A model generated the notes under the pieces. The model made no database searches. It saw nothing but the letters and a program-made list of their open reading frames with translations, and had not been told where the DNA came from. A stretch of 28,698 nucleotides of DNA from IMG/VR virus record IMGVR_UViG_3300021197_000490, positions 1-28,698 of that record. The stretch is one strand, 5' to 3'. Of the stretch, positions 11,810 through 27,737 are shown piece by piece; position 1 is the stretch's first letter; each line of letters starts with the position of its first letter. The position numbers were made by a program, and so were the translations under genes. Source of the stretch: a virus.

Positions 11810-12424
11810 ATGACTACTCCTACAACTATTGATCTCGATACCGAACTATCCGCAGTAAATTCAATCTTGGGGAGTATCGGTCAGTCTCCAGTAACTAACC
11901 TCAACTTCACTAATCCTGAGATTGAGTTCATCTACAACCTCCTCAAGGAAAGCAACGTTGAAGTGCAGAGTGAGGGTTGGGTTTACAACAGGGAAGACCA
12001 CTACCCATTCACACCTGACACTAACAAAAACATCAGCATTCCTAACAACGTCTTACGTATGGATGTGTGTAAGGAAGAAGTCTTCCGGAGTACTGATGTC
12101 GTCAAACGTGACGGCAAGCTCTACAACAAAGTCAACCATACATATGAGTTTGACAAACCACTTGACATGAACGTCGTGTGGTTATTTCCATTTGAGGATC
12201 TACCTCAACCTTTCAAGCGTCTGATTGTTGCTAAGGCTTCTGTCCGTGCAGCTACGCAGCTTGTGTCGAACCCGACGCTTGTCCAACTCCTAGGCCAGCA
12301 GGAAGGCTATGCCCGAGCAATCGTCACTGAGTACGAGTGCAACCAGGGTGACCATAACTTCCTCGGCATGGGACATGACCAGGGCTACCAAGCCTATGAA
12401 CCATTCCGTGGATTGCGTCGCTGA
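11810..12424 (+). CDS. Tail tubular protein A, T7 gp11-like
   Basis: A 204-residue protein of the gp11 adaptor family (T7: 196 residues), forming the ring between portal and nozzle. The N-terminus DTELSAVNSILGSIGQSPV is the hallmark of this family. GWVYNREDHYPFTP, the central strands, and FEDLPQPFKRLIVAKASVRAATQ near the C-terminal helices also fit. It starts five bases after the terminator T-run, so it depends on readthrough of that terminator or on a promoter within it. The stop overlaps the next gene's ATG by one base. Confidence 0.93.
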   Translation: MTTPTTIDLDTELSAVNSILGSIGQSPVTNLNFTNPEIEFIYNLLKESNVEVQSEGWVYNREDHYPFTPDTNKNISIPNNVLRMDVCKEEVFRSTDVVKRDGKLYNKVNHTYEFDKPLDMNVVWLFPFEDLPQPFKRLIVAKASVRAATQLVSNPTLVQLLGQQEGYARAIVTEYECNQGDHNFLGMGHDQGYQAYEPFRGLRR

Positions 12425-15168
12425 TGCCAAGTATTACTCAAACTATTCCTAACTTCTTTGGTGGTATCTCTAAGGTGCCTGACAGCCAGATGGGTCAGGG
12501 TCAAGTTAAAGATGCATTGAACTGCATACCAGATCTCAACAAGGGCTTATACAAGCGTCCTGGAGCTATGCGTGTAGGTACGTCAGCACTGTCTGGTGCA
12601 ACGTCCACAGGTGTGTGGTTCCATTACTACAGAGATGAAACCGAAGGTAGTTATATCGGCCAGGTCCAGTCCAACGGTTCAGTGAATATGTGGGATGCCG
12701 ATACCGGTAATGCCATCACTGTTAACTACGAAAGTGGTCAGCAATCGAACCTACAGAGCTACCTATCTAATGGCACTATTGGAACTGAAACCTTACAGTT
12801 CACGACCATCAATGACAGTACCTTTGTTGTCAATCGGAATGTGACTGCTGCTATGCAGCCAACATCCGTATCAAAGACTGACGAAAAACCTCACACTTAC
12901 TCAGCTTTTATTGAGCTGAAGCGTACACAGAATGGTCGGCAGTACGGGCTGAATATCCACAACCCCTCGTCGAACTCGACTACTACTATTTCAACCGCAA
13001 CGCAGGTGTCTGCGAACCCTACTGGTGAGGGCTATAGCACCTTCGGTGGCAACAATGGACACTGCCCGTTCGTGGGCACAAAGGTGTTCACCATCAACAG
13101 CGGTAGTAAAACCAACCTTGTGTTTCGACTGACTGTCACAGGCCAACAGGGTCCTGTCCCTGGTCACAATGACGAGTCACCTGAAGCTGGTGATTACACC
13201 TGTACGTATAGCCACAGGCTTGACCTGCTACACGGTGGAGAGGGTTGGACAGTTGGCAGTGCAGGCACTGTGACGCTGGAAGGTAAGGACTATCCGATCA
13301 ACATCGACAAGACTGAAACCGTCCAGGTACGTGCGTCGATCAAAGCTGTACGTCCTGACCCGACACCATTTGACCAACAGACCAACGTCACCCCTGACAG
13401 CATCCTTGGTGGTATCACCGCTGAGCTGGGTGGTACTGGCATCAGTTTTGAGGTCATCGGTAACGGGATCTACTTCTACAGCAACTCAACAAACTTCACT
13501 GTCGAAGCACAAAACACTGACCTAATGAGCGTTATCACCGACCAGGTGAACGACGTGACTGGTCTACCGTTCCAGTGCAAGCACGGGTACATCGTCAAGG
13601 TATCTAATAGCAGCTCTACTGATGACGACTACTACTTGCGCTTTGAAGGCAATGGTGGTGGATCTGGTCCTGGTAGTTGGGTTGAATGTGCTGAGCCTGG
13701 GATTGCAGACACCATCAACCCTTTGACAGTACCTCCCGTAATCCAACGTCAAGGCAATGGTCAATTCATTGTCAAGCGTTTTGGGTATGCACAGCGTACT
13801 GTTGGCGATACCAATACAAATCCTGAGCCTAGTTATATTGGCAAGACGATTAATAAGGTTCTGTTCTTTCGTAACCGACTTGCTTTCTTAAGTGATGAAA
13901 ACGTCATTCTGTCCCAACCAGGTGACTTGGGCAACTTCTTTGTCAATACTGCTCTCACAGTTTCAGGCACTGACCCCATCGACATTAGTTGTTCTTCTAA
14001 GTATCCTGCTATCTTGTTTGATGCTATTGAAGTAAACACTGGTCTAATTGTATTTGCAGCGAACCAACAGTTCTTGCTAGCTACAGACTCAGATATTTTG
14101 AACCCCAATACTGCACGTCTTAGCAGCATCAGTACTTACAACTACAACACTGCTGTACCACCGTTCTCTCTTGGAACTGTGGCTGGTTTCTTAGATAATG
14201 CAGGCTCTCATTCTCGATTCTTTGTCATGTCAAACGTGGCACGTGAGGGTGAGCCCAACGTTAATGAGCTGAGTAAAGTTGTATCAACTGCATTGAGTAA
14301 GAATATTGACCTACTTGCTGACTCACGTGAAAACACCACTATCTTCTTTGGTAAGAAGAACAGCGCTGAGGTGTTTGGATACAAGTACTTCAACGTGGCT
14401 GATAAACAGATCCAGTCGTCCTGGTTCCGTTGGAAGCTCGCACGACCTGTTGTCTATCACTGCTGTGTGAATGACACGTATATCTTTGTCGATGATCAGA
14501 ACTTCTTACAGAAGATTAACCTGATCAGAGATGACGACGCTACGTTCACTGAGAATAGCGAGGAGTACATTGTCCATCTGGACAACTATGTTGCTGCTAC
14601 TGGTGGTAGTTACAACAGCACTACAAAGCAGACCAGCTTTAACTTGAGTTGGATTAGTAGTATCACAGATAAGTCTGTGAACCTGGTGGCTGTCAAGCCT
14701 GGTGTTGACGGTCTCATCGTCCTTGATGTTGATGTTCCTTCTAGCGGTACAACTGTGACCGTGCCTGGTAACGAGACCTCATTGACCTTTGGGTATGCGT
14801 ACACCATGCAGATTGACTTTCCTAGGTTCTATGTGCAGAAGGTTTCTGGTGAACGCACTGTTAACGAAGAGCGTGGGAGCCTAGTAATTCATCGCATTAA
14901 ACCTTCGTTTGGCCGTCTTGGTCAGTATGAAACAACTGTAAAAAGAACGGGTAAGGTTGACTATGTAGATGACTTCACTTCTAGCACATATAACCAGTAC
15001 TTAATTGCTGATGTGCAAGTGGAAGATGAGTTTACTGGAACCGTACCTGTGTATGAAAAGAATGATAACTTTAGCTTATCAATTAAATCTAATTCACCTC
15101 TCCCCGCAACACTTATCTCTTTGACTTGGGAGGGTGACTATTCACCCAAATACTACAAGAATGTCTAA
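12424..15168 (+). CDS. Tail tubular protein B (nozzle), T7 gp12-like
   Basis: A 914-residue nozzle protein, longer than T7 gp12 (794). Six copies form the tail tube tip to which fibres attach. The N-terminus SITQTIPNFFGGISKVPDSQ and DLNKGLYKRPGAMRVG are family signatures, and IGKTINKVLFFRNRLAFLS and the EVFGYKYFN block lie in the conserved propeller core. The extra length is mainly a Ser/Thr/Gly-rich insertion around residues 150-380, where surface loops lie. The gene overlaps gp11 by one base and the gp13-like gene by eight. Cyanophage versions often differ most in this inserted region, possibly from host-surface selection. Confidence 0.93.
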   Translation: MPSITQTIPNFFGGISKVPDSQMGQGQVKDALNCIPDLNKGLYKRPGAMRVGTSALSGATSTGVWFHYYRDETEGSYIGQVQSNGSVNMWDADTGNAITVNYESGQQSNLQSYLSNGTIGTETLQFTTINDSTFVVNRNVTAAMQPTSVSKTDEKPHTYSAFIELKRTQNGRQYGLNIHNPSSNSTTTISTATQVSANPTGEGYSTFGGNNGHCPFVGTKVFTINSGSKTNLVFRLTVTGQQGPVPGHNDESPEAGDYTCTYSHRLDLLHGGEGWTVGSAGTVTLEGKDYPINIDKTETVQVRASIKAVRPDPTPFDQQTNVTPDSILGGITAELGGTGISFEVIGNGIYFYSNSTNFTVEAQNTDLMSVITDQVNDVTGLPFQCKHGYIVKVSNSSSTDDDYYLRFEGNGGGSGPGSWVECAEPGIADTINPLTVPPVIQRQGNGQFIVKRFGYAQRTVGDTNTNPEPSYIGKTINKVLFFRNRLAFLSDENVILSQPGDLGNFFVNTALTVSGTDPIDISCSSKYPAILFDAIEVNTGLIVFAANQQFLLATDSDILNPNTARLSSISTYNYNTAVPPFSLGTVAGFLDNAGSHSRFFVMSNVAREGEPNVNELSKVVSTALSKNIDLLADSRENTTIFFGKKNSAEVFGYKYFNVADKQIQSSWFRWKLARPVVYHCCVNDTYIFVDDQNFLQKINLIRDDDATFTENSEEYIVHLDNYVAATGGSYNSTTKQTSFNLSWISSITDKSVNLVAVKPGVDGLIVLDVDVPSSGTTVTVPGNETSLTFGYAYTMQIDFPRFYVQKVSGERTVNEERGSLVIHRIKPSFGRLGQYETTVKRTGKVDYVDDFTSSTYNQYLIADVQVEDEFTGTVPVYEKNDNFSLSIKSNSPLPATLISLTWEGDYSPKYYKNV

Positions 15169-15655
15169 GTACATTTATCCACTAACTAAAGAGGTCGCTA
15201 TACATGTGGCCTCTAATTTGCGCCCTGAGGACCATAGGGAGGTAACTGAGGGTCATGGTCACAACCCTCTACTTGCTCTCCTTGGAGGCGCTTCTAGTGG
15301 TTACTCAGCAGCCTTCATGATGCCTAACGGTAAGTGGGGTGCTGCTGGAGGAGTAGGTCCCGAGAACGGGATCTGGATGCTATGCACTCCTGAAATACAC
15401 AACTATCCGAAGACCTTTGCACGTGAATGTAAACGTCTTATTGAAAGTAGACCAGAGAAGATGCTGTGGAACATTTGCGATAAACGCAATGAAGTTCATT
15501 TAAAGCTTCTTCGATTTCTTGGATTCAAGTTTCTTCGTGAAGTAACTCATGGTCCTAACAACTTAACCTTTATAGAATTTTGCCGTGTGCGATCCAGTAA
15601 TCGGAGGAATAGCAGCAGGTGTGGGCGGAGCGGCGTCAGCCTTCGGGGGTCTTAA
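15161..15655 (+). CDS. Internal virion protein A, T7 gp13-like, GNAT-like fold
   Basis: A 164-residue protein in the gp13 slot, starting at ATG 15161 within the end of gp12. The body looks like a GNAT acetyltransferase fold: residues around GGASSGYSAAFMMPNGKWGAA, a strand GIWMLCTPEI, a helix ARECKRLIES, and WNICDKRNEVHLKLLRFLGF, the usual last helix of phage GNAT proteins. Such phage proteins are annotated as internal core proteins or acetyltransferases; enzyme activity is not assured. The last 24 residues are coded in a 71-base overlap with the next gene and have an odd, Arg/Ser-rich composition, suggesting a by-product of the overlap. Confidence 0.75.
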   Translation: MSKYIYPLTKEVAIHVASNLRPEDHREVTEGHGHNPLLALLGGASSGYSAAFMMPNGKWGAAGGVGPENGIWMLCTPEIHNYPKTFARECKRLIESRPEKMLWNICDKRNEVHLKLLRFLGFKFLREVTHGPNNLTFIEFCRVRSSNRRNSSRCGRSGVSLRGS

Positions 15656-16412
15656 ATCCGCTGCTGATCAGAAAACTGCTGAAGTAAACAACTACAAAAG
15701 ACAGCTACAGATACGTTCAATTAAGTGGGACGGGCAACGCGCCATGTATGGCACAAGGCTTGCCGAGTACGACACCACTGTTCAAGAGAATGTCTTGTCA
15801 GCTAGTCGGGCTTATGCGGATGAGCAAAGCCGTTTGAATGATCTATTCAAGCAAGCTGATACAAAAGGCTTAGATGCCTTTACTCGCCTTATGGAGAATA
15901 TGAGGGGCTACGGATCAGGTAGGACTGCACAACGACGTGAGGCACGTGACCTAGCTAAATACGGAAGAAGTCAAGCATTAGCTACATCGAATCTTTTACG
16001 TGCTCATGAGAATTATCAGAGCAGAGTTGAGGGTATTCGAGAGAAGCTTCGTACTACTAATAGAGGTGCTTACGCAAAGGTTCAATTCAAACCACAACCT
16101 GGAGTACCACCTGTCAAGCCGAATGTAGATATGACTGCGGCCAACCTGTCATTTATTGGAGGAATAGCTAGTGCAGTTGGTAGTGGAATTTCTACTTATA
16201 GCAGCCTGAAAGCACCAGCAGTTGGCTCAATGCCAAACCTTCAACCCTTAGGCGACTCATATAACTTTGATTTTGGAGGCAATCCTTTTGGGGCTTCTCC
16301 AATGACAAACATGGGAGGCGCGTTTAATAGCGGGTTTACTCCTTCTTCATTTGCCTTTGGGAACGTTCCAGGTTCATTTGCTTCGACAACTAGCTACACT
16401 AACTACTTTTAA
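15585..16412 (+). CDS. Internal virion protein B, T7 gp14-like
   Basis: A 275-residue protein matching the gp14 family by place and by its N-terminus MCDPVIGGIAAGVGGAASAF, a Gly/Ala membrane-like segment found at the start of gp14 proteins. GTG at 15585 is the start because it gives the family's MCDP. The middle (residues 35-160) is a long charged helix region. A second Gly/Ala segment (FIGGIASAVGSGISTYSS) comes near 190, followed by a Gly/Phe/Ser-rich tail ending TSYTNYF. In T7, gp14 is ejected first and forms the outer-membrane part of the DNA channel. The overlap with the gp13-like gene is 71 bases. Confidence 0.9.
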   Translation: MCDPVIGGIAAGVGGAASAFGGLKSAADQKTAEVNNYKRQLQIRSIKWDGQRAMYGTRLAEYDTTVQENVLSASRAYADEQSRLNDLFKQADTKGLDAFTRLMENMRGYGSGRTAQRREARDLAKYGRSQALATSNLLRAHENYQSRVEGIREKLRTTNRGAYAKVQFKPQPGVPPVKPNVDMTAANLSFIGGIASAVGSGISTYSSLKAPAVGSMPNLQPLGDSYNFDFGGNPFGASPMTNMGGAFNSGFTPSSFAFGNVPGSFASTTSYTNYF

Positions 16413-16414
16413 TT

Positions 16415-18898
16415 ATGACCACTTCCTTTCAAACATTCAACCAAGGTGGTCAGTTCCAAGCGGCACAAGTAGACCTTGGTTCTAATAATCTAGAGCAATT
16501 AAATCAACAACGTGTACAAGAGCTTGATCGTCAAAGTGATGCAATCCTTCAACGTGACCGACAGGCAGCTCAGGAAGTTGCTGAAGGCGCTAAGGGCTTA
16601 GCTCAATTCTCTGACTCACTGTCTTCCATACTTGTCGAACGACAGAAGAAAGAGAATGAAAAGCAGATGCTCGAAGGTATGCGGGACTACTGGTACAACG
16701 GTGCTGGCGAAGAGGAACAAGCTCAGTTCAAGGCTGACGAAGCAGCTTTAGGTGAAGCACGTTCTTTAGCTGATCAAGCTGCTGGTGAGTATGAACAGGG
16801 TGGTGGCGATGTTTTCGTCGCTGAAGGTCTGCGTCAGCTCTCTGGCTGGAAGGCTTACGGCTATGCCACAGCAATGTTGCAACAAGCTGGTGTTAGCTAC
16901 GGCACTCACTACACACAAAGAGGCCAAGAACTTGGTCTAAACGAAACGTCTGACCCACGTCAACGTGCTGCTATTGAACAGCAGATCCGCGAAGAATATA
17001 TGCAGCCGTATGGGGAGTTAAATCCGATGCTGCTTCATGAGCATATGTTCCCGTCAATGCGGAGGTTTGAGCAAGGTGAACAACTTGCATACGCAAATCG
17101 TCAAGCAAAGCTCTTTCAAAAGCAGCGGGAGACAGAGCGTAACCAATCCCTATATGCAACCTTTGTTAATGCCGACCCTGGTCAGACCGCTCAAAATGTA
17201 TTGCAATGGGTAGACCAGTACAAAGGTCAGTTTGGTGGAAGCAGGGGGCTAGCTTTTGCGGCGGCCACTGAAACTATCCGTACTGGACTTAGCAATGGCT
17301 CAATCGACCCAACTTCTTTTAGAAATGCATTAGATCAAGAAGTTACCTTGGATGACGGCACTGTCATCCAGCTAAGGGATCACCGTTCTAATGACCTTGC
17401 TTTACTTGAGCAAGCGGCGATTGCTGCTGAGACACAGAAAACTAATCGACTAATTGAGTACAATGACAATGCAGATAAACTGCGTATCCTTGATGCACGT
17501 GAAGCGTTCCTTCAAAGTGACCGGTCTCAGAAATCATTTGATGAAATCATTGGCGTTTTAAGGCTTGATGATTCCAAGCATTATGGCTTGTTATCAGGTG
17601 TCATGACCAATGAACAGTATGACGATCGGATTACCGCTGCTGAGATTGATTCACGTCTTGATAAAGGTCAGATCGTTTCTCAAAAACTGGTCAATCAGCT
17701 CAACGACGCCAGCAAGCGTGCCTCATATCAAGAAAAAGTACTTCAGGACGATAAACTACATCCTCCTAAGCCTCAGATTGAAGAAGCCAATCTTGATATT
17801 GAAGCTGCTGTTAAAGATGCAACCGGTGTTTTTGAGTATGACAGTCTTGACAATAGATATGCAAAAGAAAATGCTCTTGCTTTCTATCGTGCACGATATA
17901 CACAATATCGAAACGAGGAGAGTCCAAGAAGTCCACGCGAAGCTCATGAACTGGCAATAAGAGAAACACTTGCAGCAATACCTGAACAGTTTAAGTTAAA
18001 AGAAGGTGGTTTCTTTACACGTCCTGGGTTCGAGTTTCAGCAGGACAATAAGAAGATGTATGAGACCATAAGAAGTAATATCGAAGCTGGGACTGTCAGC
18101 CTTGATACAAAGCTAGAAGGTGTAGGTGAACAAGTAAAACAACTAAATGACTCAATACAAGCTAAAACAGGTATTCCAACTTTTTGGCGTACTCTTGCCG
18201 ATCAGCATGGGGTTGATGTTTATAACCTCATTAACACCAACCTTAGGGGATACGGTTACGAGGAGTTCAACCCTCCCAAAACTATTGCAGAACTCGATGC
18301 TATGTCAGCCGAGAGTCGGCGTCTGCTTCAATTTCATAAAACCTCTTCTCGTGAGCTAAGAGCTGCTACAGGCAGTACTGAAGCGAATTGGTTTTTGGAT
18401 TCAATTGCTTCTGTAGAGTCCCGTTCTTACGGTGGCTACGAAGCATTTAATCGCGGTGGTACTAACGGCGGCAACACTTCCATTGGTAGTGGTAACAGTA
18501 CTTCTGACTTAGATAAACCGATTACACAACATACAATCGGTGAGATCAAACAACTTCAACTGTTGGCTAAGAATGATCCTAATGTCCTTCATGCTGTTGG
18601 ACGTTATCAATTCATTCAGCCTACTTTCTTAGAAACAGCTAACTTGCTTGGTTTCGATGATAGCCAACCGTTTGATGAAAAAACACAGGACTTGTTTGCC
18701 TTGACTAGAGCAGCAGTTCGTGTGCAGGAAATGAATGGTGGTTCTGTAGCTGGTCTCTCTGCGGAGTGGATTGGACTTAAAAACTTACCACCAGAACAAC
18801 TTCAAAGAATGGTGGCGTTTGGTAGGAGCCTGCCACATTTCAGACAAGTACACACGTTGCTACCAGGAGTTGCTAAGGCAACACTGAAACCGAACTAA
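16415..18898 (+). CDS. Internal virion protein C, gp15-like, with muramidase-like domain
   Basis: An 827-residue protein in the gp15 slot (T7 gp15: 747). Residues 1-640 are Gln/Glu-rich helices of the internal core. From about 657 on it carries a peptidoglycan-cleaving-type domain: SIASVESRSYGGYEAFNRGG with candidate catalytic Glu668, ITQHTIGEIKQLQ, then AVGRYQFIQPTFLETANLLGF and FDEKTQDLF, ending near 815. These blocks resemble phage muramidase/transglycosylase domains with the AxGRYQ segment. In T7 the transglycosylase sits at the N-terminus of gp16, so here the activity seems to have moved to gp15. The ATG at 16415 is two bases after the gp14 stop. Confidence 0.85.
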   Translation: MTTSFQTFNQGGQFQAAQVDLGSNNLEQLNQQRVQELDRQSDAILQRDRQAAQEVAEGAKGLAQFSDSLSSILVERQKKENEKQMLEGMRDYWYNGAGEEEQAQFKADEAALGEARSLADQAAGEYEQGGGDVFVAEGLRQLSGWKAYGYATAMLQQAGVSYGTHYTQRGQELGLNETSDPRQRAAIEQQIREEYMQPYGELNPMLLHEHMFPSMRRFEQGEQLAYANRQAKLFQKQRETERNQSLYATFVNADPGQTAQNVLQWVDQYKGQFGGSRGLAFAAATETIRTGLSNGSIDPTSFRNALDQEVTLDDGTVIQLRDHRSNDLALLEQAAIAAETQKTNRLIEYNDNADKLRILDAREAFLQSDRSQKSFDEIIGVLRLDDSKHYGLLSGVMTNEQYDDRITAAEIDSRLDKGQIVSQKLVNQLNDASKRASYQEKVLQDDKLHPPKPQIEEANLDIEAAVKDATGVFEYDSLDNRYAKENALAFYRARYTQYRNEESPRSPREAHELAIRETLAAIPEQFKLKEGGFFTRPGFEFQQDNKKMYETIRSNIEAGTVSLDTKLEGVGEQVKQLNDSIQAKTGIPTFWRTLADQHGVDVYNLINTNLRGYGYEEFNPPKTIAELDAMSAESRRLLQFHKTSSRELRAATGSTEANWFLDSIASVESRSYGGYEAFNRGGTNGGNTSIGSGNSTSDLDKPITQHTIGEIKQLQLLAKNDPNVLHAVGRYQFIQPTFLETANLLGFDDSQPFDEKTQDLFALTRAAVRVQEMNGGSVAGLSAEWIGLKNLPPEQLQRMVAFGRSLPHFRQVHTLLPGVAKATLKPN

Positions 18899-18901
18899 AC
18901 T

Positions 18902-21900
18902 ATGGATGAAATTACTACACCACCTGAGGAGAGTCTAAAGGAGGCATTAGCACGACAAATAGGAGAAGACGAGATCCTTAATCAAGGAAATTCTCTACAA
19001 GCTCCTCCTGAGGAACAACCTCAACAAGATGAGGATGAATTTAGCGACATTGGTGATGTTGCTCGTGAGATTGGTAGTGCATTAGTTGGTGGCCTGCAAC
19101 AAACAGGCTCCGATCTTATAACTCTGCCTGAGCGTGCTATCGATATGGCTCGTGGTGAAGATGTTGGAGGTGAAGACTATCGCCCTGATACTGACATCTT
19201 TGGCGCATTTGAAAACCCTATTGAGACACGTACTTGGTGGGGTGGTGTCCTTAAGACACTTGTTAATTATGGATCTCTTGCTTTCGTACCTATCCCTGGT
19301 GCACGAATAGGAGCTGTTGGTAAAGCGACAGGTCTAGCTCAAATGGGTCGTGCTGCACTTGTAGGTGCAAAGGTTGACCTGATTGCTTCTGGTTCACAGC
19401 AAGACAACGCATCGGCAATCGTTCAATCAGCTCTTCAAGAGCACTACCCACAGATACAAATTCCTTTAGCTACTAAAGACACTGACCACCCTGCCATGAA
19501 GACGTTGAAGAACGTCGTTGAGGGTATGGGTATTGGTGCAGTTATTGATGGCCTAGGTATGGTCATTAAAGGCGCTAGAGGCGCTAAAGGTGCTGAAGAA
19601 GCTATTGAAGCTGCCCGTAAACGTAATCAAAGTTTAAATGAACAGACCACTGCTAAAGGTATTGATGAGGTAGCTGAATCGCCTGGAGAGTTTAGAGGTT
19701 CAGCTAACAAGCCTGTTGCTGATCCTCCTCAAGGAGCACATACATCTAATGCTCCTGCTGGTGACGTAAACAAACAACTGTCACGTACTCGTAATGAGTT
19801 AGGTGCAGAAGGTGGTTCTACTGACTCACTGACTCGACCTATCGAGTTGGACCGTATTGGTAAGGGCAACGTTGACTTGGCTCCTAAAGAGATCAAGCGA
19901 ATCATGGAAGAGTTTGCCACTACTGACTATGTGGTCAGAGAGGTGGCTGAGGCTAAAAAAATGGGAATACCACTCCATGATGTATGGGCCGACTCAACTG
20001 CCTCGATGAAGGAGATGTTCGAGGGTCGTCTAAATACTGAATTGACAACCCGTGAATGGGCTGATGATTTCTACAAGCAGGGAATCAAGCGCAAGGTTCA
20101 GCTTGAAGACGGCAGCTTTGAAGAGATCGAGATCATGGATCCAAACATGATTCCTGCTGCTGACCTACTCAAAGGTTCGTTGCTTAAAGAGATCCGAGAT
20201 CTAGGTGTCGCTGGCCGTGAGCTGCAAGACCTGTATGACCTGGGTGATACTGACGGTCCTGCCAAAGCATTGTTCGACAAGTTTGCTTCACTAGTTGCGA
20301 TTACTAAGCAGTCTCGATACTTCACTGGTTATGACCTTCAGTCTGTCAGAGGTGTAGATGGTCTACCTAAGAAAGCTGTTTATCAACAAGAGGTTAACGC
20401 GGATATTGGTAAATCTATCGATGCTTTTCGTACTGCCTTCACCATGGCTGGTGAAACCGGAGACAACGAGCTGTTCAAGGCATACATGGAAGTTGCTTCT
20501 ATGCTCGACGATGTCACGAACCTGAATGACCTGGACAACTTTTTCCGCAAGAAATTACGGGGAGGGATGTTGGACGGTAAGAAACAGACAGGTGAGCTAA
20601 TTAAAGAGCTTGAAGGTGTGATGATCCATAGCGTCCTGAGCGGTCCTAAGACCCCTATCAGGGCAATCATGGGTACTGCCTCTGCCACATTCTTACGTCC
20701 TATGGCTACTGCTCTTGGGGCAACTTTTAGTGGTGACGTGGTTACACGTAAATCATCACTAGCTGCTCTCAACGGAATGATGGGTATGCTTCCCGAAGCC
20801 TTCACGCTGTTCCGTAAGAAGCTTGATGGTTATTTCTCTGGTGATATTGCCACTGTTCAATCTCGATATGTAGAACGGACAAAGGCTGATCAAAAGTGGA
20901 AACTCTACGGAGACTGGGCAGAGAAGCGCGGTAGTGATGCTGACAAGGCTGTGTTCCGTGCTGCCAACATGGCTCGCGCTATGAACGACAGCAACTACTT
21001 GTCATACTCAACAAAGATTATGGCCGCCACTGATGATGTGTTTGGTCATATCCTTGCTCGTGGCAAGATGCGTGAACGCGCTATGCGTGAATCTCTTGAG
21101 CTTGCAAGTAAAGGTGAGTTTACTGAGATCACCCCCGCAATTCTTAGGAAGGCTGAAGAGAAGTTTGCTAAACAAATCCTTGATGAGGATGGCAATATCA
21201 TTGATGATGCTGTCAAGTATGCCAAGCGTGAATCAACTCTGACTAAAGACTTAGAGGGATTCTCTAAGGGTCTGGAGACGCTGTTCAACTCAAACCCCTG
21301 GGCTAAGCCTTTCTTCTTGTTTGCACGTACTGGTGTGAACGGTCTGGAACTGACTGCGAAGTACACACCAGGATTTAACTTCTTAGTTAAAGAGTTTAAT
21401 GATGTTGCATTTGCTAGTGTCAAAGATGTTGAAGCCGGAAACCTAACTAAGTACGGTATCAATACTTTTGAAGAACTACAAAACGCCAAGGCTCTACAAA
21501 ATGGACGCCTTGCTATTGGCTCTGCTGTTGTATCAATGGCATCCATGATGTGGATGTCGGGCAACATGTCTGGTGATGGACCTACTGACAGACAAATGCG
21601 TCAGTCTTGGGTTGATGCTGGCTGGAAGCCCCGTACCTTCACACTTGGTGGTGTGCAGATTGGTTATGAAGCGTTTGAACCCTTTAACCAAATCATGTCA
21701 ACCATCTCCAATGTGGGCGATCACAGCCTATTGATGGGTGATGAGTGGACTGAAGATCAGCTATTGAAGATTGCAATGGTTGTTGGACAAAGTGCTGCTA
21801 GCAAGAGCTACCTCACAGGTCTGCAACAGTTCGTCGATCTTTTCTCTGGTCAACCTGGTCAACACAATCGCATCATCGCAAGCTTGATGAATAACACTCT

Positions 21901-22567
21901 GCCTTTGTCTTCCTTAAGGAATGAGATCGGCAAGTTAATTACACCACACATGCGTGAGTTGGATTCTGGGATTCTTGATTCTATCCGCAACCGCAACTTA
22001 ATTACTGAGAATATTACTGATCAAGCACTGCCTATTAAGTACGACATGTTGAATGGCCGTCCTATTAAGGATTACGACTTTATGACACGTGCTTTCAATA
22101 TGTTCTCTCCTATCCAATTCAACCTGGATCAGGGACCTGGTCGAAAGCTGTTGTTCCGCAGTGGTTATGACTCACGTCTGTCCGTGTATTACGCACCAGA
22201 CAACACTGATCTTTCCAAGCTACCTGGTGTCCGATCCAAGTTTATGAAAGCTATTGGCGATCAGAACTTAGAAGCTGAACTAAATAAACTTGCTTCTGAT
22301 CCACGTATCCAAGCAAGTATCCGCAAGATGGAGAAAGATCGTGTTTCTGGTAATCGTGGTTACGAGCCGATGAAGGCTTATTACCACACGAAGGTTATTG
22401 GAGCACTGTTTAATAAAGCCAGAAAACGTGCATGGGGCACCATTCGCAATGAAGCTGACGTCCGTGCAGCAATCGCTGAATCCCGTAGTGAACGTATTGA
22501 AAATCGACAAAGCCAACGACAAACAACTTACGGACAACTCGAACCCGTTCTTAGAATGAACAAGTAA
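18902..22567 (+). CDS. Internal virion protein D, T7 gp16-like
   Basis: A 1221-residue protein in the gp16 slot (T7 gp16: 1318). gp16 is the largest ejected core protein and forms the periplasm-spanning channel that helps pull DNA into the cell. The N-terminal 50 residues are acidic, Gln/Pro-rich and probably disordered. Gly/Ala hydrophobic segments follow ([19 protein letters not shown] and [17 protein letters not shown]). A disordered linker lies at about 265-310, and then a long helical body. I see no lysozyme-like Glu motif at its N-terminus, unlike T7 gp16, in keeping with the muramidase-like domain on the preceding protein. The stop overlaps the tail-fibre ATG by one base. Confidence 0.88.
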
Positions 22568-25500
22568 TGGCAACTACACTAACAACTGAACATTCTTATA
22601 CAGGTAATGGCTCCACTACTAATTACTCTGTCACATTTACATATTTAAAAGAAGCAGATGTCAAGGTAACACTTGATCATGTTGCTACAACTGCATACAC
22701 GTTTGCTAACGCTTCAACCATTTCATTTACTACTGCTCCTGCTAGTGGAGTAGCCATCCGTATCTTCCGTGATACTGATGTAGATGCAGCCCGATTTGTC
22801 TTTTCTTCGGGCTCTGCCCTTAAGGCTGGTGAGCTAAATGAAAACCTAGATCAGCTTCTGTATGCTGACCAAGAAAAGGCTAGCACTGACAACATTGCTG
22901 ACGAAGCTGTTACTACAGCTAAACTTCGTGATGGTGCTGTAACTACTGCAAAGTTTGCAAACCTTTCTATTACCACTGCTCAGTTAGCAGATAGTAGTGT
23001 AACAACTGCAAAGATTGCAGCCGATGCAGTCAACGGTACAAAGATTGCTGACAACAGCATTAACTCTGAGCACTACGTTGATGGCTCTATCGACACTGCT
23101 CATATTGCTGATGCACAAGTCACGACAGCCAAGATTGCTGATGATGCTGTTACTGCAGCCAAACTTGCAAACACGGCTGTAACTGCTGGTAGCTACACAG
23201 CTACTGACATTACTGTTGATGCACAAGGCCGGATTACTGCTGCATCTAATGGTGCCATTGGTACTTCTGAAATTACTGATGCTGCTGTTACTACAGCAAA
23301 GATCGCTGATGCAAACGTCACTACAGCAAAGATTGCAGATAATGCAATCACTAACGCCAAACTAGCTGACGCTGAACTGGTAGAGCTTGCCACCATGGGT
23401 GGTAACACTGCTTCTGCTTTAGCTGACCTTACACAAGCTGAAGTACAAATCCTTGATGGTGCAACGGTTACCACTGCTGAGCTAAACACGCTTGATGGTG
23501 TTACCGCTACTGCTACAGAGATTAACCAGCTTGATGGCAAGACACTGAAAGCCTCAAGTACTGACTTCACATCATCTATTCAGTTCCCATCTGCTGCTGA
23601 GATTGACTCGCGTATTACCGCACGTATTGATCCACTTGGTGGTTTTGAAGCTATTGCTGATGAAGACAGCTTCCCAGCAACTGCACCTCCAGTTGGCACA
23701 GTTATTAGTATTGCCAACGCTAACAGCCTTGCTGTTAATAGCAGTGGTGTAGGTGCTGGTACACGTGCAGGTGGTAGTGATGCTGTTGTTATTAACGGCT
23801 TCCCATCTGGGTTCAATAGCACGTCTCTTGATGACGGTATTGGTCTCTTGGTTATTGCCACGAGCACTGCACACACGTATGACTTCCATCGTGTTGTTGC
23901 AAAGAACGAAGACGTGCGTCAGCTCAGTTCTGACATTAACGACTTCAAAGCACGGTATCGGATTGGTTCATCTAATCCAACTACTGACAATGATGCTGGT
24001 GACTTGTTCTTTAACACTGGCACTAGCAAGATGCTTGTACGTAATGCAGGTAACTCTGCGTGGCAAGAAGTACAAGCTGTTGGTGACTTCTTCATCAATA
24101 CTATTAGCTCCTCTAGTGGTACTGGTGGCGGCTCAGCAACGTTTAACGGCTCTGCCTATAGGTTTACCCTTAGCAATGCTCCAATCACCGCACAGCAGCT
24201 TCTAGTAAGCATTAACGGTGTTGTGCAGAAACCTAACAGTGGTACTTCACAACCTTCTGAAGGTTTCGTACTTAATGGTGCTGACATCATTTTCTCTGCT
24301 GCTCCTGCATCTGGTGCTGCTGGTTTCTTTATTACCATTGGTTCTAGTGTAGGTATTGGTACGCCAAGTGATAACACTGTTAGTACAGCTAAGCTTGTTA
24401 ACGATTCGGTTACTAACGCAAAGATTGCTGATGATTCAATCGACTCTGAACATTACGTTGATGGGTCTATTGATACGGCACACATCGCTGATAGTGCTGT
24501 AACGTCTGCCAAGATTGCTGACGGTACGATTGTTAACGCTGATGTTAACGCTAGTGCTGCAATTGCAGGTACAAAGATTAGCCCTAACTTTGGTAGTCAG
24601 AATGTATTGACGACTGGTTCGGCTGGGATTGGCACGACGTCGCCTACTTCGGCACTTCACGTTTCAGCGAATGATCCTGCCATCTTTATTCAAGATGCAA
24701 ACAGTACAGGAAATAATGTAAACGCAACTCTTCAATTCAGAGATAGCTCAAATACTCAGGTGTCGTACTTTGGTTTTGCAAGCGCTTCTGATAGCCATTT
24801 ATCAGTATTTAATACAATGTCTGGCGGTGATCTGCGCTTTGGCACGGCATCTGCCGAGCGGATGCGAATCGCCAGCTCTGGCAGAGTTGGCATTGGAACG
24901 TCGTCGCCTTCGCAGTTGCTAACTGTTGCAGGTGTGGCACGCTTTGAAAACTTTATTGAGTTTGGTGGTTCAATATCAACACCAGGAACAGCAGCCGCTA
25001 TTTATCGACCTGCTGATAACAATCTTGCATTTAGTACAGCAAGTGCCGAACGCCTAAGAATCGACAGCTCGGGCAGGCTGCTTTTAGGCACGACTACTGA
25101 AGGTCTTGCAGATGGTAACAATCTAACTATTGCTGATAGTGGTCCTTGCGGAATTACGCTTAGAAGTGGAAGTTCTAGTGGTGGTGCAATTTATTTTAGC
25201 GATGCAACTTCTGGGTCTGGAGAATACGCTGGATTTGTTGAATACCTCCACAGCAGTGATGCTTTAAGGTTCGCTACCGGTGGTACGGAACGGATGCGAA
25301 TCGACAGCTCGGGAAATGTAACTCTTGGACGAGCTGGAACTAGTTTACATTTTCAAAATGGTTTTAATAATAGTACGTCAAGAATACAAAATGGTGGTGG
25401 TTCAAACAGTTCCAACTTTAAATTTTTAGTCACCAATTCCGGCTCTGAATCAGAAGCAATGCGAATCGACAGCTCGGGTCGAGTTAAGTGCCAAGCAGGC

Positions 25501-26175
25501 TATTTATATGTGCAAAACAGTGCATCAGGGACAGGGGATACTGACGGTCTTGCCTTAATTAGTGATGGTAACGCAGATAAATATATATGGAACTATGAAA
25601 ACACAAGTTTGCGTTTTGGTACTAACAACCAAGAGCGGATGAGGATCGATAGCGCGGGGCTCTGTAAACACTATAGAAACACAACAACAACAGGTGTTGG
25701 TCTTCTTCAATGCAATTCAGATATTGGCGGAACTGATAGAGCACAATGGTACGTTCTAAGTAACGGCGATGTTCAAAACCGTAATGGCAGTTACTCGACC
25801 ATTTCTTCTGACGAACGGATGAAAAAAGACATTGTTGACGCACCTTCACAGTGGACAGATATTAAAAACATTAAAATGCGTAAATTCCGTTACAAGGCTG
25901 ACGGTGATGATTCGCAATTACAGCTTGGTGTTATTGCACAAGAGCTTGAGGTAGTTTGCCCTAACTTGGTAACAAGGAAGCCTGCCACTGCGGAAATGTC
26001 CGCTGAATCAGAAGGATTAATTGCTGAAGGGGAAGACCTTCTGAGTTGGAAGCAATCTATTGTTCACCTTAAAGCCCTTAAAGCGTTACAAGAAGCAATG
26101 GAGCGCATCGAAACCCTAGAAACACAAAACGCCTCCCTTGAGGCAAGACTAACCGCTCTTGAAGGAGGATCTTAA
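22567..26175 (+). CDS. Tail fibre 1: gp17-like anchor, repeat shaft, S74 chaperone
   Basis: A 1202-residue tail fibre that should bind the host surface. Residues 1-110 (YTGNGSTTNYSVTFTYL onward to LNENLDQLLYADQE) are the gp17-type anchor to the tail. Then come many degenerate TTAKIAD/NAKIAD repeats (about 115-300 and 600-670), including a duplicated block SEHYVDGSIDTAHIAD. A shaft with repeats of ERMRIDSSGRLL type follows (about 750-1030). The C-terminus is an S74 intramolecular chaperone with Ser1081 and Lys1086 (SSDERMKK), the pair used for self-cleavage, then a coiled coil (ALKALQEAMERIETLE). Release would leave a fibre of about 1080 residues. The fibre probably trimerises before cleavage. 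Confidence 0.9.
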   Translation: MATTLTTEHSYTGNGSTTNYSVTFTYLKEADVKVTLDHVATTAYTFANASTISFTTAPASGVAIRIFRDTDVDAARFVFSSGSALKAGELNENLDQLLYADQEKASTDNIADEAVTTAKLRDGAVTTAKFANLSITTAQLADSSVTTAKIAADAVNGTKIADNSINSEHYVDGSIDTAHIADAQVTTAKIADDAVTAAKLANTAVTAGSYTATDITVDAQGRITAASNGAIGTSEITDAAVTTAKIADANVTTAKIADNAITNAKLADAELVELATMGGNTASALADLTQAEVQILDGATVTTAELNTLDGVTATATEINQLDGKTLKASSTDFTSSIQFPSAAEIDSRITARIDPLGGFEAIADEDSFPATAPPVGTVISIANANSLAVNSSGVGAGTRAGGSDAVVINGFPSGFNSTSLDDGIGLLVIATSTAHTYDFHRVVAKNEDVRQLSSDINDFKARYRIGSSNPTTDNDAGDLFFNTGTSKMLVRNAGNSAWQEVQAVGDFFINTISSSSGTGGGSATFNGSAYRFTLSNAPITAQQLLVSINGVVQKPNSGTSQPSEGFVLNGADIIFSAAPASGAAGFFITIGSSVGIGTPSDNTVSTAKLVNDSVTNAKIADDSIDSEHYVDGSIDTAHIADSAVTSAKIADGTIVNADVNASAAIAGTKISPNFGSQNVLTTGSAGIGTTSPTSALHVSANDPAIFIQDANSTGNNVNATLQFRDSSNTQVSYFGFASASDSHLSVFNTMSGGDLRFGTASAERMRIASSGRVGIGTSSPSQLLTVAGVARFENFIEFGGSISTPGTAAAIYRPADNNLAFSTASAERLRIDSSGRLLLGTTTEGLADGNNLTIADSGPCGITLRSGSSSGGAIYFSDATSGSGEYAGFVEYLHSSDALRFATGGTERMRIDSSGNVTLGRAGTSLHFQNGFNNSTSRIQNGGGSNSSNFKFLVTNSGSESEAMRIDSSGRVKCQAGYLYVQNSASGTGDTDGLALISDGNADKYIWNYENTSLRFGTNNQERMRIDSAGLCKHYRNTTTTGVGLLQCNSDIGGTDRAQWYVLSNGDVQNRNGSYSTISSDERMKKDIVDAPSQWTDIKNIKMRKFRYKADGDDSQLQLGVIAQELEVVCPNLVTRKPATAEMSAESEGLIAEGEDLLSWKQSIVHLKALKALQEAMERIETLETQNASLEARLTALEGGS

Positions 26176-27205
26176 TTATGGGACTTACACAAATCACAAC
26201 TGGAGGTGTTGATGACAATATCAACATCGACAGTAATACTCTGAAGGTTGACGGTACGAATAACCGGGTTGGGATTGGGACGGCAGCGCCCGCTAATAAA
26301 TTGCATGTTTCAGATACATCTGGTTCAGCTCAAATTCGCATAACAGGCTCAAGCGGCAGTAGTAACATTTACGCCGATAGTAATATTTATTTCCAACCAA
26401 ATGGCAGCACTGCGGTTACTCTTGCTAGCTCGGGAAATGTTGGTGTTGGTGTAAGCAGTCCTCTACGTTCATTACACATTGCTGGAGCAGGTGACACAGG
26501 CTTAATGCTTCAGACAACTAACGCTGTTGATAATAATGAAATTTGGGAGATACAAGTTGGTGCCAATGCAAGCAATCATGCTGATTTAATCTTTCGTTCA
26601 CGCACTAACGCTGGAACAGGCGGAAGTGAGGCAATGCGAATCGACAGGTCGGGCAGGCTGCTGGTGGGTACGACGACTGAAGGTGCTGTTAGCGGGGATA
26701 ACCTTACCATTGCAGCTAGTGCAAACTGCGGAATGACAATTCGCAGTGGTATTAACAATTTTGGTTCAATCTATTTTTCAGACGCTACAAGCGGCGGTGG
26801 AGAATATGACGGATATATTGCATATAGCCAGCCCAACAGGTTCATGCAGTTTGCCACAGGGCAAGCAGAAAGGATGCGAATCGACAGCTCGGGTAGGCTC
26901 TTAGTTGGTACGTCTAGTAGCGCCAGCGGAAGTGTATCTCATTATGCCCGTTTGCAAGTTCAAGGGCATTATCAAGGCAGCGCAGACGAAGCAAGAATTA
27001 GTTTTCAAAGGGGTGAATCGTCTGCATCTATGTCAAATGGCGACAAAATAGCGTTAATTAGTTTTGCAGATAAAGACGGTGGAGATTATGCGCGAATTGA
27101 AGCGTATGCGGATAGCACACCTGGCTCTAGTGACTATCCAGGTCGCCTAGCGTTCTCCACTACTGCCGATGGTGCGTCAAGCCCTACGGAGCGGATGAGG
27201 ATTGG
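24856..27205 (+). repeat. Conserved DNA linkers inside the two fibre genes
   Basis: A block around ATGCGAATCGACAGCTCGGG recurs, near-identical, at about 25056, 25294, 25456, 26634 and 26874, with weaker copies near 24856, 25632 and 27190. It encodes M-R-I-D-S-S-G. A second linker, GGCATTGGAACGTCGTCGCC-like, precedes several repeats. These stretches are GC-rich, while the segments between them are AT-rich and diverged. Identity at the DNA level, including rare Ser codons (TCG), points to exchange between copies rather than protein selection alone. Confidence 0.8.
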
Positions 27206-27737
27206 GAATGGCGGAATGGCTAGCTTGTTTGCTTCGTCTGGATGGGAAAGTCAGATTCTATTCAATCAGAATGGGGCTGGAACAGCACGATCTTTCATAA
27301 TTGGCAGACATTCAGCTACTGCATGCTCTAGTGCGTCTGGCACTATTGGCACTATTTCGTTCCGAGTTTATACAAACGGAAACGTTACAAACACCAACAA
27401 CTCCTACGGTGCCATCTCCGACATCAAGTTGAAGGAGAACATCGTTGATGCGTCTTCACAGTGGAACGATCTAAAAGCAATTCAGGTTCGTAACTACAAC
27501 TTCATTGAAGGACAAACACATACTCAAATTGGTGTTGTCGCTCAAGAAGTAGAAACAGTGTCACCTGGTCTTGTTAGTGAATCTCCTGATCGCGACGAAG
27601 AAGGAACTGACCTTGGCACCGTTACTAAATCAGTCAACTACTCGGTGCTTTATATGAAGGCTGTGAAAGCACTTCAAGAAGCAATGGAACGCATCGAAAC
27701 CCTAGAAACCAAAGTTGCAGCCCTTGAGGCTGGATAG
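26178..27737 (+). CDS. Tail fibre 2 with S74 chaperone
   Basis: A 519-residue fibre-like protein behind the first, with GGAGG at 26164-26168 and nine bases to the ATG. It lacks the gp17 anchor. It starts GLTQITTGGVDDNINIDS, then VGIGTAAPANKLHVS and several ERMRIDSSGRLL-type repeats shared with fibre 1. Its S74 chaperone has Ser414 and Lys419 (ISDIKLKEN), and the same C-terminal coiled coil (ALQEAMERIETLETK). It may form an outer fibre section joined to fibre 1, or an alternative receptor-binding protein. The shared DNA between the two genes suggests duplication or repeated exchange. Confidence 0.87.
   Translation: MGLTQITTGGVDDNINIDSNTLKVDGTNNRVGIGTAAPANKLHVSDTSGSAQIRITGSSGSSNIYADSNIYFQPNGSTAVTLASSGNVGVGVSSPLRSLHIAGAGDTGLMLQTTNAVDNNEIWEIQVGANASNHADLIFRSRTNAGTGGSEAMRIDRSGRLLVGTTTEGAVSGDNLTIAASANCGMTIRSGINNFGSIYFSDATSGGGEYDGYIAYSQPNRFMQFATGQAERMRIDSSGRLLVGTSSSASGSVSHYARLQVQGHYQGSADEARISFQRGESSASMSNGDKIALISFADKDGGDYARIEAYADSTPGSSDYPGRLAFSTTADGASSPTERMRIGNGGMASLFASSGWESQILFNQNGAGTARSFIIGRHSATACSSASGTIGTISFRVYTNGNVTNTNNSYGAISDIKLKENIVDASSQWNDLKAIQVRNYNFIEGQTHTQIGVVAQEVETVSPGLVSESPDRDEEGTDLGTVTKSVNYSVLYMKAVKALQEAMERIETLETKVAALEAG

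Follow-up and report, generated by a model that had tools for sequence, protein, structure and literature searches.

The DNA analysed here (IMG/VR virus record IMGVR_UViG_3300021197_000490, positions 1 to 28,698, the whole of which is called the window hereafter) is a viral contig of 28.7 kb and comes from a T7-like phage; among isolates, the nearest one found is S-TIP37 (Igirivirus), a cyanophage of Synechococcus WH8109. At the position of the internal virion protein gp15, the window holds an open reading frame (ORF) of 827 amino acids (aa), the C-terminus of which is, by sequence, significantly related to lambda-type lysozymes. This domain, the gp16-like protein encoded behind it and the counterparts of both in related phages are considered below. 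The features of the gp15-like gene are the following:

16415-18898, + strand: gp15-like internal virion (ejection) protein, 827 aa (ORF, homology to S-TIP37, gene order)
18353-18853, + strand: lambda-lysozyme-like, presumed peptidoglycan-cleaving domain, gp15 residues ~647-813 (leave-out hidden Markov model (HMM), PDB profiles, AlphaFold2 (AF2), VIA-align)
18416-18418, + strand: codon (GAG) of E668, the proposed catalytic glutamate, lambda E19 equivalent (MAFFT --add, alignment A4)
18593-18610, + strand: AVGRYQ signature, gp15 residues 727-732 (conservation in A4)

The lysozyme-like domain of the gp15-like protein

An initial annotation, made from the sequence alone, had proposed a muramidase-like domain at the C-terminus of the gp15-like protein, with E668 and the AVGRYQ block at its end, and this location is borne out by the searches. 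The domain was found in 75 sequences, namely 66 loci (L078-L143) and 9 of 15 distant loci (L036-L050), of which 46 were kept at under 0.9 similarity; L123, which contains an unknown residue, L043, L048 and L049 were dropped from alignment A4. The latter comprises 49 rows, i.e. 42 distant relatives, the window and six close relatives, besides a smaller, diverse alignment of 11 rows (A3). The HMM built from the 42 distant relatives only, leaving out the window and its six close rows, matches the window gp15 with an E-value of 1.4e-42 (142 bits), and with 4.1e-39 after removal of two further rows. In 2000 shuffles of residues 636-827, the highest score was 5.8 bits with the first of these HMMs and 6.3 bits with the second, and residues 1-635 alone score about 0 bits against the leave-out HMM; a chance motif is ruled out by the leave-out HMM and the shuffles. 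In a six-frame scan of the window with the lambda-type profile (window included), the gp15 ORF alone stands out (E 2.3e-58, runner-up E 1), and G[RK]YQ occurs a single time in the six frames of the entire window.

Compared with the PDB, the A3 profile matches 11mn_A (5.8e-11), the lambda lysozyme structures 3d3d and 1am7 (1.6e-7) and the hub of cyanophage A-1(L) (8kea, 1.3e-6), and hhalign pairs the domain profile with lambda R over 46 columns around GRYQ (Prob 93.9, E 1.5e-7). The same sequence family includes large proteins of T4-like cyanophages annotated as 'endolysin' or 'hypothetical', the baseplate hubs of rhizobiophages and the A-1(L) hub, which adjoin tail genes or are annotated as hubs and, unlike the protein of the window, belong to contractile-tailed phages rather than to an internal core. 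Other viral contigs also encode relatives of the segment on shorter ORFs, which have about the size of an endolysin (~280 aa). Regarding PHROG families, the last 177 residues of gp15 match two labelled 'endolysin', phrog_90 (3.3e-7) and phrog_1200 (1.1e-5), neither of which is matched by the full-length protein. The last 300 residues of the protein at the gp15 position of S-RIP1 (L053:2978-5341) match phrog_90 with 1.5e-115. The 'endolysin' label of phrog_90 probably comes from the lysozyme domain and may mislead the annotation of ejection proteins.

The AF2 model of the domain, computed on A4, has a predicted local distance difference test (pLDDT) score of 86 and a predicted template modelling score of 0.82; with 11 near-identical sequences, the pLDDT was only 47. 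As aligned with VIA-align, the model comes closest to the hub of cyanophage A-1(L) (Z 9.0, 138 aligned, 5.0 A), then to lambda lysozyme (1am7, Z 8.7, 123 aligned, 4.7 A; 3d3d, Z 8.2), and the rows at Z 5.8 and below include the lysozyme-fold enzymes RpfB, 7eyb_I, MltE and phiKZ gp144. The structure modelling suggested in the initial annotation therefore gives a domain with the predicted fold of lambda lysozyme. With Foldseek, 20 viral predicted proteins were retrieved at E<=1e-3, with S-TIP37 gp15 on top.

When lambda R is added to A4 (MAFFT --add), E668 pairs with lambda E19, which we take to be the catalytic residue of lambda lysozyme, and a glutamate is present at this position in 49/49 rows; the same glutamates are paired in the profile's own match to the N-terminal part of lambda, an insignificant match of 0.3 bits. 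Within the AVGRYQ signature, of which the lambda equivalent is GAGRYQ, A727, G729, Y731 and Q732 are invariant in A4 (49/49) and R730 is conserved in 43/49, and Y675, T737 and Q758 are likewise invariant in all 49 rows. The domain shares with the lambda endolysin R the fold, the position of the catalytic glutamate and the GRYQ and QD motifs, but lambda R is a free endolysin of late lysis, unfused to a virion protein. The lambda endolysin is presumably a transglycosylase of family GH104 (CAZy). Because of the relationship to it, the gp15 domain is more likely a lytic transglycosylase than a hydrolytic muramidase by analogy, so that the lysozyme-like fold behind the term 'muramidase' stands, and the hydrolytic activity that the term implies is the less likely one.

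The gp16-like protein and the surrounding genes

The gp16-like gene starts 3 nt downstream of the gp15-like ORF, and both are embedded in a run of structural genes, the remaining features of which are:

18902-22567, + strand: gp16-like internal virion protein, 1221 aa (phrog_6651 internal virion protein, E 6.1e-287)
12424-15168, + strand: gp12-like tail nozzle protein, context (PF25675 Phage_nozzle, 1.1e-152)
15134-15655, + strand: gp13-like protein (phrog_308 internal virion protein, 4.4e-37; PF11090 E 0.0072, below cut-off)
15585-16412, + strand: gp14-like internal virion protein, weak (PF24072 T7_gp14 E 0.014, below cut-off; position)
22567-26175, + strand: gp17-like tail fibre, context (PF03906 Phage_T7_tail, 1.2e-14; Peptidase_S74, 1.5e-10)

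This order is that of S-TIP37, in which the gp15 counterpart is STIP37_37; the identity between the two phages amounts to 60.9% over 100% for gp15 and to 81.5% for gp16. With its location between the gp14-like and gp16-like genes and a size within ~750-1000 aa, the gp15-like ORF has the place and length of a T7-type gp15, and gene order and size also agree with P-SSP7 (by position, its 'gp15'), Syn5 and T7. The gene at the gp15 position of P-GSP1 has weak similarity to the window gp15 (21.9% over 31%).

As the initial annotation noted, the enzyme of T7 is located at the N-terminus of gp16, where Pfam, used as a positive control, recovers SLT at residues 15-127 (1.7e-31). It further stated that gp16 of the window lacks such a motif, which holds by sequence since no Pfam family was matched at E<=1 and the lambda-type profile gave no match at E<=10. 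As far as these searches can recognise, the window gp16 has no catalytic domain, including none of the N-terminal SLT kind of T7. More broadly, 25 cyanophage-type gp16 sequences, representing 23 phages or loci (two in two pieces, and two loci partial), gave, at E<=0.01, 0/25 matches to SLT or to other families of lysozymes. The sole Pfam match at this threshold is an M23 peptidase in the upstream piece of S-CBP2 (3.5e-8, residues 736-807), encoded by the ORF L055:4480-7635 between gp15 and the C-terminal gp16 piece. Among T7-type gp16 proteins, 16 of the 48 loci found (L171-L176, L178, L179, L182, L184, L188, L190, L192-L194, L196) match T7 gp16 only from residue 144-159 onward. Nine of the 16 were translated; as these loci stop short of the start codon, only ~60-100 upstream residues are visible, and they are different from the T7 SLT region; another hydrolase possibly occupies the place of SLT in these 16 loci.

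The conclusion of the initial annotation that the ejected machinery has been rearranged is only partly supported, insofar as the lysozyme-like domain lies on gp15 instead of gp16. T7 gp16 also provides a wall-cutting enzyme on an ejected core protein, but as an SLT domain at the gp16 N-terminus. The chain 7eyb_I ('core proteins'), presumably T7 gp16 including its SLT domain, shows only a distant fold resemblance to the window domain (Z 5.5, aligned at 14-147). A transfer of the T7 SLT from gp16 to gp15 is rejected, as SLT is a different family and profile comparison gave no link between the lambda-type profile and the T7 gp16 family. Replacement fits better than transfer because no homology to T7 gp15 or gp16 was detected and the T7 enzyme belongs to another family. 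More precisely, hhalign of the window gp15 to T7 gp15 gave Prob 0.16 with a profile of only 11 closely related sequences, the gp15 profile (A1) had no match in the PDB, and no sequence homology between cyanophage gp16 and T7 gp16 was detected with either the single sequence or the family profile. The cyanophage gp16 profile retrieved only weak matches among solved structures, to designed and unrelated helical proteins.

Wall hydrolases at the gp15 position

The protein at the gp15 position was surveyed in the window and in 23 named T7-like phages, out of 62 records with a gp16 match (several records duplicate one genome). The lambda-type profile was applied to the window and 19 of the 23 phages, plus T7; S-B28, S-CBP42, S-SBP1 and S-SRP01 were covered by Pfam only, and S-TIP37 by the lambda-type profile and NCBIfam, without Pfam. 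A hydrolase at the gp15 C-terminus is well supported in 10 cases out of 24, more weakly so in 6 and not recognised in 8, and at least five families are represented. The lambda-type domain is carried by gp15 of the window, S-TIP37 and S-RIP1 (domain E 3.1e-13 in S-RIP1). The phage tail lysozyme PF18013 (Phage_lysozyme2) is above cut-off in S-CBP2 (1.8e-9) and below it in P60 and in Syn5 gp44 (E 0.013), and it is assigned to S-TIP28, SS120-1 and S-CBP42 only through the similarity of their last 380 residues to Syn5 or P60, with which S-TIP28 and SS120-1 also share phrog_19560. SLT domains occupy the gp15 position in S-CBP3 (SLT_3, 5.4e-13) and S-CBP4 (SLT, 8.3e-12), Glucosaminidase in S-CBP1 (3.3e-11) and S-SRP01 (7.8e-22), and Hydrolase_2, above cut-off in both cases, in S-RIP2 (2.5e-6) and S-SBP1 (1.8e-7). 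Besides, an M23 domain follows the first enzyme in S-CBP4 (2.1e-9, after SLT) and S-SRP01 (3.3e-9, after Glucosaminidase), although an M23 motif regular expression gave no match.

No hydrolase was recognised in gp15 of P-SSP7, P-GSP1, NATL1A-7, NATL2A-133, P-SSP2, HTVC025P and CRP-227, and no stand-alone hydrolase ORF is evident by eye between gp15 and gp16 of NATL2A-133. The comparison with P-SSP7 and Syn5 advised in the initial annotation thus yields no recognisable hydrolase in the former and a different, weak one (PF18013) in the latter. The eighth case, 9515-10a gp15 (L019:7718-10612), was left unassigned: it has GLGRFQ near its C-terminus, but it matches the lambda-type profile only below significance (domain E 0.075), and this part may be a diverged lysozyme. 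In P-SSP7 gp15 (L015:4559-7072), the C-terminal 200 residues contain two copies of a motif of the W-KIPN-IGY-V--G-EW--SGQ-GK type; this duplicated motif could be a wall-binding part.

Among uncultured phages, 75 loci with the lambda-type domain were examined, near-copies counted, and 33 of them contain a gp16 homologue, which in all 33 lies on the same strand and directly downstream, at a distance of -8 to 88 nt from the domain ORF (median -1). In the remaining 42, some of which end there, no gp16 homologue was found. From sequence comparison, the lambda-type domain on gp15 is thus not peculiar to the window phage, as it recurs in S-TIP37, S-RIP1 and these 33 viral loci.

A direct sign of an exchange of such domains comes from S-B28 and the contig L096 (an A4 row), the gp16 proteins of which are 77.2% identical over 955 residues and the gp15 bodies 47.3%. 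From residue ~735-740 the two gp15 proteins diverge, so that their last ~116 and ~146 residues are unrelated, with Hydrolase_2 in S-B28 and the lambda-type domain in L096, and DNA similarity returns (76.5%) at the gp15/gp16 boundary. The last 380 residues of S-B28 gp15 are similar to those of S-RIP2 at 3.3e-39. On a gp16 tree of 37 rows, 13 of which are loci included for carrying the lambda-type domain, the module labels change 16 times (15 without 9515-10a as its own state) against a mean of 19.5 when shuffled, and a count as low was reached in 3/200 shuffles; this tree is a quick one, supported by the Shimodaira-Hasegawa-like approximate likelihood-ratio test (SH-aLRT) only, with long branches for S-CBP2 and HTVC025P and labels of uneven strength. 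Altogether, the gp15 C-terminus of marine T7-like phages looks like an exchangeable position for unrelated fused wall hydrolases.

Hydrolases borne by gp15 are already published for other T7-like phages, namely K1E/K1-5 and PhiM1 (PMC11440229). The gp15 homologue of K1-5/K1E (gp35 in a review, EPKV1_gp38 in the K1-5 record) has a hydrolase near its C-terminus, like the window protein; in K1-5 it is PF00959, at residues 776-910 of 982, and the protein at the gp16 position has no SLT. The K1-5 domain belongs to another family (Pfam Phage_lysozyme) than the lambda-type one of the window, and direct kinship between them is rejected since the lambda-type profile did not match K1-5, taken as a single sequence. 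In PhiM1, according to the available text on its ejectosome structure, the octameric ejection protein in the gp15 role (gp49) includes a lysozyme-like domain (Gly718-Ser903), which its authors describe as lacking in T7 and from which they infer wall degradation after ejection (PMC11440229). As far as that text describes it, PhiM1 is like the window in having this domain on the gp15-role protein, and differs from it in an endolysin-like domain also inserted in the gp16 counterpart, none being recognised in the window gp16. PhiM1 was not listed in the PDB profile searches with the window domain, nor is its domain among the VIA-align rows, an absence to which no weight is given.

Proposed role in entry and alternative explanations

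The best explanation, and in our judgement a probable one, is that a domain of the lambda endolysin type, with E668 as the acid, is part of the ejected gp15 and opens the wall around the tunnel, and that its position is exchangeable. The gp15-like protein would be carried in the capsid as a component of the internal core and, when infection begins, be ejected into the periplasm, where, by analogy with T7 and PhiM1 as described in the available text of the reports, the core proteins that have left the head would form a tunnel (PMC8954989; PMC11440229). Each copy of gp15 would then display its C-terminal domain on this tunnel, and these domains, probably acting as lytic transglycosylases, would cleave the glycan strands nearby, letting the DNA tunnel pass the cyanobacterial wall. 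In this phage, the domain would do the job of the SLT enzyme of T7 gp16.

Several results weigh against this explanation or parts of it. Pfam and NCBIfam are blank for the full-length gp15 as well as for its last 177 residues. The broader A4 profile matches lambda lysozyme in the PDB more weakly (6.9e-4), with the A-1(L) hub off the list, and Foldseek alone reaches no better than E 0.41 in the PDB (lambda lysozyme), with none at E<=0.001. The pairing of E668 with E19 was obtained by forcing lambda R into the alignment. The names gp15 and gp16 are based on position and size, as are those of P-SSP7, the record of which has its own gp15 and gp16 genes 'assigned by synteny and size'. The gp15 proteins without recognisable hydrolase (8/24) include the relatives P-SSP7 and P-GSP1. 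As to the exchange, Hydrolase_2 of S-B28 is under the Pfam cut-off (E 5.4e-4), the gp15 bodies of S-B28 and L096 have only 17% identity in one 50-column stretch (columns 451-500), and, judging from the gp16 tree, the module labels change often, yet the exchange is not free of descent.

The alternative that survives best, albeit an unlikely one, is that the domain is no longer catalytic and instead binds the wall or has a structural role in the core, e.g. shaping a DNA-spooling groove around the ejectosome. In its favour, the available text on the A-1(L) hub reports activity of the endoglucanase and peptidase domains and not of the lysozyme domain (PMC10966104), and the C-termini without recognised family could likewise be binding parts. 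Against it speak the invariance of the lambda E19 equivalent together with the YQ signature, and the fact that the recognisable modules of the relatives in this place are enzyme families. Less likely again would be that gp15, or a processed C-terminal fragment of it, is the endolysin responsible for late host lysis. Such a role would agree with the 'endolysin' names of the top PHROG families, with the lack of any other lambda-type match in the six frames of the window and with the absence of a wall hydrolase, according to Pfam, in ten further ORFs of the window; it is opposed by the location of the gene between the gp14-like and gp16-like genes and by the related domains on proteins annotated as baseplate hubs. 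Moreover, the phrog_90 label appears to derive from the domain itself, as the match of the S-RIP1 protein at the gp15 position indicates, and the window is a fragment, outside of which a separate endolysin may lie. Finally, that the 827-aa protein represents a different sort of virion lysozyme (e.g. tail-attached) and no counterpart of T7 gp15 is highly improbable, since the lack of detected homology to T7 gp15 and of any PDB match for the gp15 profile is set against a gene order and size matching S-TIP37, P-SSP7, Syn5 and T7, the weak similarity to the P-GSP1 gene at the same place and the immediately adjoining gp16-like start.

Beyond ejection with gp15 and cleavage of the wall, a wider and decidedly tentative idea, which we hold to be possible but rather doubtful, is that T7-like phages have, at the gp15/gp16 boundary, a dedicated slot for the exchange of peptidoglycan hydrolases, with a cassette class that may be tuned to the host wall. 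It is based on the families found on marine gp15, the Phage_lysozyme of K1-5 and the SLT or other N-terminal parts on gp16 of T7 relatives, and supposes that the cassette may lie before or after the stop and start codons. If true, the chemistry of the wall would influence which phages gain entry. The arrangement of the window is of a known kind and may belong to this wider, testable pattern of an exchange slot; the cyanophage case and a gp15 slot with multiple families were not found in ranked listings of the open-access PMC literature, and there is no mention of them in the available text of PMC4646655, PMC9860041, PMC10386132, PMC5345008, PMC11784390, PMC8790148, PMC8776855 and PMC10575957.

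As neither Pfam nor NCBIfam detects the domain, the presumed wall-breaching enzyme of these cyanophages often appears in records as a 'hypothetical protein', or its family is labelled 'endolysin'. A hydrolase position on gp15 offers a testable account of how short-tailed phages pass through the cyanobacterial wall, and indicates the protein of interest. For S-TIP37, whose gp15 is 61% identical to that of the window, a gene-editing system has been published, according to the available text of PMC8776855.

Regarding the rest of the window, a scan of positions 15000-23000 for promoters and terminators gave 6 promoter-like matches against 11.4 expected and 7 terminator-like ones against 6.7. The tail fibre (22567-26175) contains many repeats of the TTAKIADxAVTTAKI type and a C-terminal Peptidase_S74 chaperone; Peptidase_S74 recurs close to the end of the following ORF (26178-27737). 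A T7-like DNA polymerase is split over two overlapping frames, at 2-580 and 541-1812, the halves of which match RNase_H_2 (E 2.5e-4, exonuclease part, just below cut-off) and DNA_pol_A (1.9e-35, polymerase part), respectively. The split is probably no sequencing error of the contig, because the DNA polymerase of S-TIP37 has the same split, annotated there as a split variant or frameshift.

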